From NCBI RefSeq assembly GCF_000022205.1, contig NC_012029.1, forward strand, positions 2,666,001 through 2,730,000: a stretch of 64,000 nucleotides of DNA. The letters run 5' to 3'. This DNA is from Halorubrum lacusprofundi ATCC 49239 (GTDB lineage Archaea > Halobacteriota > Halobacteria > Halobacteriales > Haloferacaceae). A program made the translations under genes and the position numbers. The notes below the pieces were generated by a model that did not search any database, was not told the origin of the DNA, and saw only the letters and a list, made by a program, of their open reading frames with translations. Positions within the stretch are counted from its first letter, which is position 1. Each line of letters begins with the position of its first letter. Shown here in pieces: positions 18,789-60,813 of this stretch.

Positions 18789-19147
18789 TTATAAGTGAAA
18801 GCGGAGGCTACGTGGTCTATTTATAAGGGAATGTGCGGTGGCGCGCCCCGGTAAGCGGCCCGAAGGGCCGCGAACCGACGGTGCGAGGGAGTCGGTCGCC
18901 CGAGCAACGCGGAGGGCGACCGACGAGGCTGGGGAGGTGTGAGGCTGTGGTTGCGGTGCGGGCGGGGTGGGACTGAAAGGGGGCAGTCGCCGGCGGCTTT
19001 GCCGCCGGCTGCAAGCGAGAGCTTCGCTCTCGCCCTGCCACGAGGACGAAGCACACCGACGTAAGCACCGCAGCAAGCCGCGCGAGTCGTCGCGGCTGGG
19101 GCTTTGGAGGTGTTCACCGTCGATCTACCGGCAATCACTTATAAGTG
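18789..19147 (+). repeat. structured intergenic repeat, copy A (sense strand +)
   Basis: First of five related non-coding elements in the window. It starts with TTATAAGTGAA, has a second TTATAA at 18821-18826, and ends in the 12-bp palindrome CACTTATAAGTG (19136-19147). Possible stems: closing CGGTG 18836-18840 with CACCG 19115-19119; hairpin 1 GCGGCCC/GGGCCGC (18855-18861, 18865-18871); hairpin 2 GTCGGTCGCCC/GGGCGACCGAC (18891-18901, 18914-18924); hairpin 3 CCGGCGGC/GCCGCCGG (18990-18997, 19001-19008); hairpin 4 GCGAGAGC/GCTCTCGC (19015-19022, 19026-19033). Invariant blocks: GAGGCTGGGGAGG 18925-18937 and GGCTGGGGCTTTGGAGG 19094-19110. It has no protein gene. It is a mobile repeat, an RNA gene, or both. 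Confidence 0.75.
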
Positions 19148-19203: not shown

Positions 19204-19461
19204 ATGGCCACGGAGTCCTGTGACGTCTGCGAGCGGTCCGTCAGGATCGCCGGCGGAATCGGCGACCTGTGGAACTTCGCGTTCGAGTCGACGCAGGGAC
19301 TGACGCTGGAGCTGACCGACGGCTCCGAGTTCTTCCTCTGTTTCGAGTGTATGGAGTCGCTGCCGGACGACCACGAGCCGACCGCCGACGACGTCGCCGA
19401 CTTACGGGCGCGAACCGAGCCGGTTGAAGGCGGTCGCGACCACTTCTGGCACTGGAAGTAA
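19204..19461 (+). CDS. small zinc-ribbon protein
   Basis: 85 residues. It has CDVC near the N-terminus (residues 6-9) and CFEC in the middle (about residues 49-52), giving a four-cysteine zinc-binding pair. The rest is acidic, with a histidine/tryptophan-rich end (GGRDHFWHWK). It is probably a cytoplasmic single-domain zinc-ribbon protein; the haloarchaea encode many such small proteins and no function is assigned. The gene is flanked on both sides by repeat copies A and B in opposite orientation, which makes it the centre of a composite-like structure. Confidence 0.75.
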   Translation: MATESCDVCERSVRIAGGIGDLWNFAFESTQGLTLELTDGSEFFLCFECMESLPDDHEPTADDVADLRARTEPVEGGRDHFWHWK

Positions 19462-19496: not shown

Positions 19497-19846
19497 TTAT
19501 AAGTCGTTGACGATGGATCGACGGTGAACACTTCCAAAGCCCCAGCCGCGAGGACTCGCGTGACTCGCTGCGGTCCTCGGTCGGTCGCTAGCGCTCTCTC
19601 CCTATGGTCCTTGCGTCGTCATGCGTCGTCCTCGCGGCAGGGCGAGAGCGAAGCTCTCGCTTGCAGCCGGCGGCAAAGCCGCCGGCGACTGCCCCCTTTG
19701 AGTCCCGCCCGCACAGCACCGCAGCCTCACGCCTCCCCAGCCTCGTCGGTCGTCCTCCGCGTTGCTCCGGACGACCGACTCCCTCGCGGGCTCCTCGCGG
19801 GCCGATGGCCCGCTCGGAGGCACGCCACCACTTCGTTCACTTATAA
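19497..19846 (-). repeat. structured intergenic repeat, copy B (sense strand -)
   Basis: Same family as copy A, inverted. Its 5' TTATAA (19841-19846) lies 10 nt past the thiQ stop codon, and its 3' TTATAA is at 19497-19502. Hairpin 2 pairs GTCGGTCGTCC with GGACGACCGAC (plus-strand arms 19769-19779 and 19745-19755), so it differs from copy A at one position in each arm with pairing kept. The GAGGCTGGGGAGG and CTGGGGCTTTGG blocks are present. A 74-nt segment (19626-19699) is the reverse complement of 18976-19049 in copy A with one mismatch. Confidence 0.75.
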
Positions 19847-19856
19847 AGCGCCGCAC

Positions 19857-48693: not shown

Positions 48694-49266
48694 CTAGAGC
48701 CCGAACGACGCGACGGTCTCGTACGCCGGCCCGTCGCTCGTCAGCGTCGACGAGACGAGTCGGACCGCGTCGACCTCGAACCGGCCGATCTCCGGGTCGC
48801 GCTCGCGGACGGCTTCTTGTACGAGTTCCTTCCCGCGGGCGTCGTTCATCCGGGCGAGCGTGACGTGCGGGGTGAATGCGTGGTTCTCGGGGTCGACGCC
48901 GAGCGCGGTCGTCTCCACTTCGAGGGCCTCGTGGAGCGCGGTCAGTTCCGCGCTCCCGGCGTCGACCCCCGCCCAGACGACCGAGATGTAGTCGAGGCTG
49001 GGGAAGACGCCGAATCCCTCGACGGCGCACTCGAAGGGGTCGACGTTAGCGGTCTCGACCGCCTGTTTGCCGGCGGCGATCACGTCGTCGAGTGTGGGTG
49101 TGGTGTCGTCGTTGTCCTCGGCGATATCTCCCAAGAACTTCAGCGTGACGTGCGTCTGTTCGGGATCGACGAGTGCCAGTCCCGCTGCGTCCCCGAGCGC
49201 GGCCTGTGCGTCCGCGACGCGAGGCGCGAGGTCGTCCGGGAGGTCGACGGCGAAGAACGCGCGCAT
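48694..49266 (-). CDS. thpR: RNA 2',3'-cyclic phosphodiesterase (2'-5' RNA ligase family)
   Basis: 190 residues, 2H phosphoesterase fold with both catalytic motifs HVTLKFLG (near residue 39) and HVTLAR (near 133). It opens 2',3'-cyclic phosphates on RNA and is the archaeal member once called LigT. A TTATAA (49294-49299), which is the 3' end of repeat copy C, lies about 30 nt upstream of its ATG and can serve as its TATA box. uvrC lies 203 bases upstream in the same direction. Confidence 0.9.
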   Translation of the reverse strand: MRAFFAVDLPDDLAPRVADAQAALGDAAGLALVDPEQTHVTLKFLGDIAEDNDDTTPTLDDVIAAGKQAVETANVDPFECAVEGFGVFPSLDYISVVWAGVDAGSAELTALHEALEVETTALGVDPENHAFTPHVTLARMNDARGKELVQEAVRERDPEIGRFEVDAVRLVSSTLTSDGPAYETVASFGL

Positions 49267-49293
49267 GACGGGTGGGAAGTTGGGCGAGAGTGC

Positions 49294-49474
49294 TTATAAA
49301 TCGTTGATGGCGCGAAGGATACCTGCGAAATGCCAGCCGATCACTTATAAACGGATGGCTGCTGATCGCTGGCCAACACTGCCAAAGCCCCAGCCTCGTC
49401 GGCCGCCCTCCGCGTTGCTCCGGGCGACCGACTCCCTCACACCGGGGCGCGCCGACCGCGTCATTCACTTATAA
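49294..49474 (-). repeat. structured intergenic repeat, copy C (sense strand -), internally deleted
   Basis: TTATAA motifs lie at 49469-49474 (5' end), 49345-49350 and 49294-49299. The first overlaps the uvrC stop codon. Hairpin 2 uses plus-strand arms 49422-49432 and 49398-49408; in the sense strand it pairs GTCGGTCGCCC with GGGCGGCCGAC, with one G-U wobble. The region between the two GGCTGGGG copies of the full element is missing, so GAGGCTGGGG runs directly into GGGGCTTTGG. Hairpin 1 and most of the middle are reduced. The 3' module supplies the likely TATA box of thpR. Confidence 0.7.
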
Positions 49475-51247
49475 GCGTTCGCGGAGCGTGTCGGCGGTCG
49501 CGTCGCCGACGCCGTCGACGTCGGTGAGGTCGTCGAGGGAGGCATCGCGCACGCTCTCGACCGATCCGAACCGGCGCAGGAGCCGGCGGCGGGTCTGGGG
49601 GCCGACGCCGGGCACGTCGTCGAGGACCGTCTTGACCTCGTCGCGGACGGTCTGGTGGTAAGAGACGGCGAAGCGGTGCGCCTCGTCGCGAACGCGCTGG
49701 AGCAGGTGCAGTTCGGGGGCGTCGTCCGGCCACCGGCGGGTGCCGGTCGGGGTCACGACCAGTTCCTCGGCCTTCGCGAGCGCGACAACGGGAACGTCCC
49801 AGCCGGTCTCCGCGAGCGCGTCGCGAGCGGCCCCGAGCTGCCCCCCGCCCCCGTCGATCAGGAGAAGGTCGGGGTCGGGGCGGTCGTCCTCGCCGGCGAC
49901 CGCGCGCTCGGCGCGCCACCGGACCAACTCGCGCATGTTCGCGTAGTCGTCGTTGCGGTCGGTGAGCTTCTTCCGGCGGTAGTCGCTCGTCTCCGCGCTT
50001 CCGTCGACGAAGCACACGTCGGAGCCGACCACCGCGGTCCCCTGCGCGTGGCTCACGTCGAACCCCTCGATCCGGGCCGGGCGGTCGATTCCGAGTCGCT
50101 CGCCGAGCGCGCCGACGGGGTCCTCACGGCCGCCGCGCTTGCGGGCGTTTTTGAGGGCGAGTTCGACGAGCTTCGCCTCCCGCCCCGCACCGGGGACGCG
50201 GACCGAGACCCCCTCCGCCTCCAGCCAGTCGATCACGTCGGGGTCCGACGGGCGCTCTGCGAGGAGGATCGCGTCCGGGAACTCCCGCTCGGCGTAGTAC
50301 TGCGTGAGGAACGCTGACAGCACCGCGGCGGGCGTGTTGGCGTCGGGGTCGGCGAAGCCATCTTCATCTCCCTCGCCGTCGTCTCCCACCGCCGCCGCGT
50401 CCAGCCGGTGCCGACTGCGGTCGACCAACTGGCCGCGCTCGCTGTGAAGCCGGGCCACGCGAGCGGTGTCGCCCTCGACGGCGGCCGCGAGCACGTCGAC
50501 GGTGCGGTCGTCGGAGTGGTCGCTCACGGCCTCGCCGCCCTCACCGTGGAACGCCTCGACCGCTTCGAGCCGGTCCCGGAGGTTCGCGGCGCGCTCGAAC
50601 TCCGCGTTCTCGGCGGCGGCCTCCATCCGCCGACGCAGGGGGTCAGCGAGGACGCCCGTCTCGCCCTCGAAGAACCGGCGGGCGGCCGCAACGTCCTCGG
50701 CGTAGCTCTCGGGGTCGATCTCGCCGGTACAGGGGGCCGAGCAGATCCCCATCTCGTAGTCGAGACAGGGACGGTCCCGGTTCGCGTACTTGTGGTCGGA
50801 GCAGCCGCGAAGCCGGTACTCGTCGCGGATCGCTTTCACCACCGTCTCCACGCGACCCTTGCTCGTGAACGGGCCGTACGCGACCGCGCCCTCCTCGGGG
50901 TCGCGGGTCACCTCGATCCGCGGGACGGGGTGGTCCGTGATCGCAACCAGCGGGTACGACTTGTCGTCTTTCAGCCGGACGTTGTACCGCGGCCGGAGCC
51001 GCTTTATCAGGTTCGCCTCCAACAGGAGCGCCTGCGTCTCGGTGTCGGTGACCGCGAACTCGATCCGGTCGGCGCGCCCGACCATCCCCCGTATCCGCCC
51101 CGAGCGCGGGTCGGCGTACGACCGCACCCGATTCCGGAGGTTGACCGCCTTGCCGACGTACAGCGTCGTCTCCCCGGCCCGGAACTGGTACACACCGGGT
51201 TCAGTCGGGAGGTCTGCGGCCCGCTCGCGCACGGCGTCGGCGTCCAT
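49469..51247 (-). CDS. uvrC: excinuclease ABC subunit C
   Basis: 592 residues. The GIY-YIG nuclease domain is at the N-terminus ([20 protein letters not shown]), followed by a cysteine-containing middle ([30 protein letters not shown]), a UVR segment near residue 200, the C-terminal nuclease domain with [17 protein letters not shown] and a final helix-hairpin-helix pair ([29 protein letters not shown]). It cuts both sides of DNA lesions with UvrAB. Haloarchaeal uvr genes came from bacteria. The last codons CTTATAA coincide with the 5' end of repeat copy C. Confidence 0.95.
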
Positions 51248-54566: not shown

Positions 54567-54627
54567 GCGCACTAGCGGAAGGGCCATCGACGACCTCGAT
54601 CGAGAGTAACTGTTCACGGAACGGGAT

Positions 54628-54889
54628 TTATAACTGAACGGTGCGGTCGGCGCGTGCCGACGAGTGGCCGACAGGCCACGAGTCGCACGCGCGAGGGAGT
54701 CGGACCGGCGCGGCTGCGCCGGTCCGACGAGGCTGGGGAGGCGTGAGGCTGCGGTTGCGGTGCGGTCGGGTGGGCCTCGCTGGCTGGGGCTTTGGAGGCC
54801 TTCACCGTCGATTCGCGATCAGTCATTTATAAGCAAGCAGCTGGCACTCCGCCCGTATCTACCGACGATCCGCCACCAACCAGTTATAA
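54628..54889 (+). repeat. structured intergenic repeat, copy D (sense strand +)
   Basis: Begins with TTATAA (54628-54633). Closing stem ACGGTG 54638-54643 with CACCGT 54803-54808. Hairpin 1 GTGGCC/GGCCAC (54664-54669, 54674-54679). Hairpin 2 is a perfect 13-bp stem GTCGGACCGGCGC/GCGCCGGTCCGAC (54699-54711, 54716-54728), whose distal part differs from copies A-C. GAGGCTGGGGAGG 54729-54741 and GGCTGGGGCTTTGGAGG 54782-54798 follow, with a shorter middle than copy A. TTATAA repeats at 54827-54832 and 54884-54889; the last one overlaps the stop codon of the converging 2H phosphoesterase gene. Confidence 0.75.
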
Positions 54890-55462
54890 GTCGATCGTCG
54901 CGGCGACCTCCCGAAACTCGGGATCGTACAGGTCGAGCGCGTGGACGCGCCACCGGATCGGCTCGAACTCGGCGCCGACGAGGTCGGCGACGACGCCCGG
55001 CTCGGGGTTGCCACCACGCGCCACGGTAATGTGCGGAACGAAGTCGTCACCCTCGATCCCCGCGATCGCGCCGTAGGCGGCGCAGAGCCGCCGGTGGACT
55101 CGGACGAGCGCGTCGCTCTCGATGACCAGATACAGCACCGGAGCCGACCCCGACGCGGGCGCGTCGAAGATGTCGATCCCGATCACGGCGACCGGGAAGG
55201 GGTCGGTCCCCGCGAGCAGCGGGTGGAGGTCCTCGCGTAGGGCGTCGAGTGCGTCGGGCTTGGGGGGTGACGGGCCGCCGGCCGGAGCACCGCCCCCGGC
55301 GCGGTCGTCACTCGCGACGCGGTCGGGCACGTCATCGACGCCGAACCGCTTGCAGACGAGCGTGTGTCGGTCGCGCACCCGATCGAACCCCGACAGTTTC
55401 GACTGGAGATCCGCCGCGAGCCGGTCGACGGCGGGTGCGAGCGGGACGTTCAGGCTAAACAT
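54884..55462 (-). CDS. 2'-5' RNA ligase family protein (2H phosphoesterase)
   Basis: 192 residues. The second motif HITVAR (near 148) is intact; the first appears as RHTLVCKRFG (near 33), with His-x-Leu spacing less usual than in ThpR. The middle has an alanine/glycine/proline-rich insertion. It is probably a cytoplasmic cyclic phosphodiesterase on RNA or nucleotides. It forms a unit with the small membrane protein gene upstream, three bases away. Its TAA is inside the TTATAA at the end of repeat copy D. It is the second 2H protein in the window, beside thpR at 48.7 kb. Confidence 0.78.
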   Translation of the reverse strand: MFSLNVPLAPAVDRLAADLQSKLSGFDRVRDRHTLVCKRFGVDDVPDRVASDDRAGGGAPAGGPSPPKPDALDALREDLHPLLAGTDPFPVAVIGIDIFDAPASGSAPVLYLVIESDALVRVHRRLCAAYGAIAGIEGDDFVPHITVARGGNPEPGVVADLVGAEFEPIRWRVHALDLYDPEFREVAATIDL

Positions 55463-60393: not shown

Positions 60394-60453
60394 CGTGATC
60401 GGCTGTGCGAACGGCTCGCACACTTAAAAAGGATCGCCGGATGTGAGGAGTGC

Positions 60454-60813
60454 TTGTAAACGTGGTGCGGTGGCGCGTACCGAGGAGCGCCCGAAGGGCG
60501 CGACTCGCACGCGCGAGGGAGTCGGAGCGGCGCTTATGAGCGCCGCTCCGACGAGGCTGGGGAGGCGTGAGGTGCTGTGCGGGGCGGGACTCAAAGGGGG
60601 CAGTCGGCGAGGCGGGCGCAGGGGACGTAAGGACCGCAGGGAGCGAACAAAATGAGCGACTGAGGACCGCAACGAGCGTGCGTCCGCCTCGCCGACTGGG
60701 GCTTTGGAGGTCGCGGTCGTCGCCACCGATCCGGTAGCAACCACATATAAACGATCGACGAGAGAGCCGAACGCGTTCACCGCCGATCCGCGGACACCAA
60801 CGATCGCTTATAA
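60454..60813 (+). repeat. structured intergenic repeat, copy E (sense strand +)
   Basis: Begins with TTGTAA (60454-60459), a variant of the TTATAA end. Closing stem CGGTGGCG 60468-60475 with CGCCACCG 60721-60728 (8 bp). Hairpin 1 GCGCCC/GGGCGC (60487-60492, 60496-60501). Hairpin 2 is a 14-bp stem GTCGGAGCGGCGCT/AGCGCCGCTCCGAC (60521-60534, 60539-60552). GAGGCTGGGGAGG 60553-60565, GACTCAAAGGGGGCAGTC 60588-60605. A perfect 15-bp long-range pair, CAGTCGGCGAGGCGG 60601-60615 with CCGCCTCGCCGACTG 60684-60698, replaces the local hairpins of copies A and B. It then has CTGGGGCTTTGGAGG and a duplicated 3' module ending in TTATAA (60808-60813), 14 nt from a stop codon. Confidence 0.75.

Follow-up and report, generated by a model that had tools for sequence, protein, structure and literature searches.

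Dispersed, non-autonomous repeats that form hairpins and lie at the 3' ends of genes are known in bacteria as the REP/BIME, ERIC and Correia (CREE) elements, and Correia ends may contain promoter boxes and give rise to a short target duplication. The repeats described here are likewise dispersed, hairpin-forming, non-autonomous and located at gene 3' ends, but they are archaeal and larger and possess a branched fold kept across genera; the comparison is one of description, with no sequence relation expected. In Haloquadratum walsbyi, the PATEs and the SMR-A and SMR-B elements are short, non-coding, palindromic and intergenic, occur in many copies and are present or absent between strains (PMC3119063). 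The SMRs have inverted ends and insert into the palindromes of other elements, the PATEs are related to IS605-type transposons, and both types are described as leaving no target duplications (PMC3119063). Our element is also short, non-coding, multi-copy, palindromic, intergenic and variably present between strains; unlike the PATEs and SMRs, it is bounded by TTATAA on either side, lacks inverted ends, shows a signature at the level of RNA and has no link to the TnpB genes tested. With the structured RNAs of Rfam it has in common a conserved fold, covariation and constant loops, but a search of Rfam release 15 at gathering and permissive thresholds gave nothing above threshold, the best permissive matches being at chance level, and a search of open-licence papers returned neither TTATAA-bounded haloarchaeal repeats nor a matching RNA family.

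We propose that the repeats are probably a dispersed, non-autonomous element with a structured-RNA body, bounded by TTATAA in the genus Halorubrum, the hexamer being duplicated or left single. In the favoured reading the element encodes a structured transcript, and its transcription is something we infer.

Copies of the element in the window

The window, which is the whole stretch of 64,000 nucleotides analysed, contains five copies of the element, listed here with the adjoining genes and hexamers.

18820..19144, plus strand: copy A (covariance-model match, sequence)
19204-19461: small gene flanked by copies A and B
19497..19847, minus strand: copy B, inverted relative to copy A (covariance-model match, sequence, inverted repeats)
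48694..49266, minus strand: thpR (open reading frame, orthologues)
49294..49299, minus strand: last TTATAA of copy C, the thpR TATA box at -33 (box kept in strains without the element)
49294..49474, minus strand: copy C, shortened, in which a fusion between two GGCTGGGG repeats joins 5' domain and 3' tail (sequence; covariance-model match G000:C2:2715381-2715475)
49469..49474, minus strand: first TTATAA of copy C, the last codon (Leu) and stop of uvrC
49469..51247, minus strand: uvrC (open reading frame; ends CGC TTA TAA)
54627..54889, plus strand: copy D (covariance-model match, sequence)
54884-54889: last TTATAA of copy D, the Leu codon and stop of the 2H gene
54884..55462, minus strand: 2H phosphoesterase-like gene, convergent to copy D (open reading frame, orthologues; ends GAC TTA TAA)
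60453..60813, plus strand: copy E (covariance-model match, sequence; RNA fold z = -7.7)

The names uvrC, thpR (RNA 2',3'-cyclic phosphodiesterase type) and 2H phosphoesterase-like are the assignments of the original prediction. The window holds 12 TTATAA hexamers, all at or beside the five copies, where dinucleotide shuffles give an expectation of 0.3. A third hexamer lies inside copy C at 49345, and the middle of this copy is gone by fusion of the two GGCTGGGG repeats. The small gene between copies A and B is zinc-finger-like, and in another family (G038) its orthologue likewise comes after a copy (L290).

The original prediction had described a tight fit of the elements to the 3' ends of genes, and this description holds. 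The minus-strand gene uvrC (51247-49469) ends CGC TTA TAA in the first hexamer of copy C and the 2H gene (55462-54884, minus strand) ends GAC TTA TAA in the last hexamer of copy D, whilst a stop codon (19857) lies 10 nt ahead of the start of copy B, and another (60827) 13-14 nt from the end of copy E; the last hexamer of copy C (49294-49299) lies, as had been claimed, at the TATA position of thpR, at -33 of its ATG (49266). Across the genome, where neighbouring genes were called with a simple codon-usage script and single cases may be off, the upstream gene ends exactly as Leu-TAA in the first TTATAA at 4 of the 84 usable copies, a convergent gene has its stop in the last TTATAA at 3-4 of the 84, and the upstream stop lies no more than 20 nt from the first TTATAA in 17/55.

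Anatomy of the element and signature of a probable RNA

Most copies have the same order of parts: TTATAA; a forked 5' hairpin whose internal loop is CGAG/CGAG (tandem G-A); a second hairpin, the sequence of which varies freely; the constant strand of the element, GAGGCTGGGGAGGYGTGAGG; a 3' stem, opened by CAAAGGGGCAG and closed by CTGGGGCTTTG, with an AAAG/CTTT closure around a GGG/GGG internal loop; and a tail unit, sometimes repeated, which ends in TTATAA. The GGG/GGG loop is invariant in the 3' stem of all copies and occurs along with many CGAG/CGAG tandem G-A motifs, which suggests a fold that may bind a protein or a metal. The hairpins of L028, L024, L014 and other copies contain small nested inserts of palindromic sequence, such as GAGGGACC..GGTCCCTC..CAGCCGGCGGCGAAGCCGCCGGC, which are like the small mobile repeats of Haloquadratum.

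Both compensatory changes of pairs and a strand-specific tolerance of G-U were found, as in structured RNAs. The 5' domain has 31 double-change cells, in which both sides of a pair are changed, and 0 of 500 shuffles scored as high, on related sequences. The structure counted was set by hand after viewing the alignment, and the test is biased towards it for that reason; it replaced a poor fold that RNAalifold had derived from the MAFFT alignment. Pairing of the 3' stem across independent genera is the stronger test. In 65 copies from outside the genus, 89% of this stem is paired over 14 positions, whereas shuffling of the arms leaves 64% (at most 68% in 1000 shuffles) and sliding the stem out of register 35-39%; the pair beside AAAG/CTTT is C-G in Halorubrum and G-C in the others. 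Stem mismatches read on the element strand are G-T in 57 cases vs A-C in 17 in one set, and 47 vs 16 in another, the sequences being related and not fully independent. Such an excess on one strand would be expected for RNA but not for DNA, and points to selection on an RNA. Copy E folds with z = -7.7, but the opposite strand folds too, and fold energy alone is therefore uninformative on the strand. Hairpins are likewise predicted for the other strand and in DNA form, which counts against the RNA reading.

Copy number and distribution

Allowing up to one mismatch, about 60 occurrences of the core GACGAGGCTGGGGAGG are present in the genome, every one of them on contig C2 (2.74 Mb). The same contig carries all 90 matches of a covariance model of the 5' domain, and the two remaining contigs (0.96 Mb) have none. 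A few pairs of matches belong to single copies, and the genome has about 85-90 copies, for which replication-strand bias shows no clear pattern. An SRP54-like gene has copies on both sides (G000:C2:513885 and 516101), and copies adjoin it in two other families.

Every Halorubrum genome sampled has many copies. A second model, built across families, has matches in 104 of 194 haloarchaeal genomes sampled and in 36 of 65 genera; up to 16 candidates were scored in each genome, and the copy numbers obtained there are to be read as at least the value given. An exact-pattern search in named genomes returned 98 stretches, nearly all of them haloarchaeal, in Haladaptatus, Haloarcula, Halopiger, Halobium, Halorussus, Salinarchaeum, Halosimplex, Natronorubrum, Halobaculum and others; a match in a planctomycete MAG was taken as chance, the rest of the element being missing there. 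The phage records searched gave no match and the plasmid records two weak matches only, with a partial match in one Halorubrum plasmid record. Outside the genus, there is neither a TATA upstream of the core nor a TTATAA downstream of it, and TTATAA ends are, on the sequences compared, a feature of Halorubrum only. Since the other families lack a TATA upstream of the core, a promoter of its own is not a general feature of the element.

Empty and filled sites

Many species have a copy between uvrC and thpR, with a TTATAA at the uvrC stop on one side of it and the TATA box at -33 of thpR on the other. In G018 this site is empty and reads CGC TTA TGA, 25 nt, ATG, so that a single hexamer, TTATGA, is the stop of uvrC and probably also the TATA box; among strains without the element, uvrC ends in TTATGA, CTGTAA, CTGTAG or CTGTGA. 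The 2H site is empty in G024, with one TTATAA, and reads TTATAA, element, TTATAA with the same flank in the relatives L116, L117 and L119; L113, L133, L134 and L135 have TTATAA at the 2H stop without the element. At hemB, G062 and G004 have no element yet have TTATAA, and G018 has neither. At 2H and hemB there are two TTATAA when filled vs one when empty, which may reflect a direct repeat of the target, through either gain or loss of the element; the empty uvrC site has TTATGA, and hemB in G018 has no hexamer. It had also been suggested that insertion creates the stop codon. The evidence on this is mixed: it is compatible with uvrC, where the element-free strains are without TTATAA, and is contradicted at 2H and hemB, where TTATAA is present without the element; at these two genes the comparisons support a stop hexamer that preceded the element.

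As empty sites have one hexamer and filled sites two, the hexamer appears to mark the boundary of insertion or excision, with the upstream stop and the downstream promoter kept. We propose that a copy bounded by TTATAA would double the hexamer on insertion, or leave it single on loss, and that an existing upstream stop and a downstream TATA which use the hexamer would stay intact. The ends of the element would then "fit" stops and promoters because a hexamer already used by both stays intact on insertion and loss. In a search for joined flanks, which took in 15 of 17 segments, most sites were filled in several species and a few were empty, with inserts of about 180-600 nt. With most sites filled in several species, the element would move slowly or have moved long ago, and a precise deletion between the two TTATAA may account for some of the empty sites.

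Mobility and larger units

Four units of about 450-470 bp (462-bp) in G012, which are 97-99.8% identical and lie at different loci, indicate recent copying. They belong to a class (class M) in which the element is enclosed by a larger unit whose inverted ends are GATCGATAGCGGGAGTG/CACTCCCGCTATCGATC, whereas the TTATAA-bounded form has no inverted terminal repeats; about 11-15 copies in this genome resemble the larger class. At a shared site in G031 (L272), the whole larger unit is reversed. The outer flanks of the larger units (L137-L140 in G012; L272) look like degenerate CTGTTGAAATCC-type insertion-sequence ends. A mobilising enzyme is presumed, and a search for a mobilising gene or transposase partner found none. 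The 30 TnpB loci of the genome have no ends or motifs in common with the element, and on this comparison of TnpB loci an IS605/TnpB origin was rejected.

Discussion

The original prediction held that the repeat end acts as the promoter of thpR, the terminal TTATAA supplied by the element being TATA boxes that drive the downstream gene. TTATAA is plausible as a haloarchaeal TATA box, the last one of copy C lies at -33 of thpR, and the first one precedes the structured part by a nearly constant distance. However, about ten thpR orthologues with no copy in the upstream 520 nt have a TATA-like hexamer (TTATAA, TTATGA, TTATCA or TTTATG) at -31 to -36, mostly exactly at -33, even where the upstream gene differs; the box is thus not missing where the element is missing. 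Because these orthologues have it at the same place, the box is thpR's own and was not brought by the element, which is probably not the thpR promoter. In addition, 59 of 84 copies have a convergent downstream gene, hence no start there to drive, and the other families have no TATA. We therefore regard a repeat that carries promoters as very unlikely, and warn against reading such TTATAA boxes in this way.

Gene 3' ends are favoured by the copies in the genus (upstream in 55 of 84, p 0.006; downstream in 59 of 84, p 0.0003; both vs one half), the same loci are filled in several species, and the neighbours of copies here also adjoin copies in other families more than control genes do (odds ratio 2.2-3.7, p 0.02-0.08), which hints at a function or at shared permissive sites. 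These observations, along with hairpins that vary and strands that stay constant, would fit a cis-acting structured RNA at gene ends, with a role in processing, termination, stability or the insulation of convergent genes, which is selected at fixed loci and spreads mainly by gene conversion with little transposition. We hold this to be unlikely, since the orientation bias is different in other families (a co-directional downstream gene in 36 of 57) and the element has no T-run, and since its absence from several genera, its presence or absence between species and the four near-identical G012 units fit a dispersed element better. It is also unlikely that the repeat is mobile purely at the level of DNA, as a MITE, PATE or small mobile repeat whose hairpins would be used by a transposase, on single- or double-stranded DNA, and have no RNA role. 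Such elements are abundant in haloarchaea (PMC3119063), some copies lie inside the larger unit with inverted ends, and the hairpins contain nested palindromic inserts; but DNA would not be expected to have an excess of G-T over A-C on one strand, the long unpaired strands are conserved, the TTATAA-bounded form is without inverted ends, and the TnpB elements of the genome share neither ends nor motifs with it.

The interesting part is the element itself, an unnamed haloarchaeal structured RNA, its transcript predicted, that is expanded in the genus Halorubrum. Our fuller suggestion is a tentative one, possible rather than probable: that of a previously unnamed haloarchaeal RNA of about 250-350 nt which spans genera, and which forms here a chromosome-restricted family of about 90 copies, mobile at TTATAA and harmless to TATA boxes and stops. 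If this is true, a structured RNA missing from every RNA library searched would be abundant in haloarchaea, at up to about 90 places per genome, and its function, transcription and spread would be directly testable in the cultivable Haloarcula, Haladaptatus and Halorubrum. The element would then do no harm on entering promoters and gene ends, as the hexamer that it duplicates serves both as stop codon and as TATA box.
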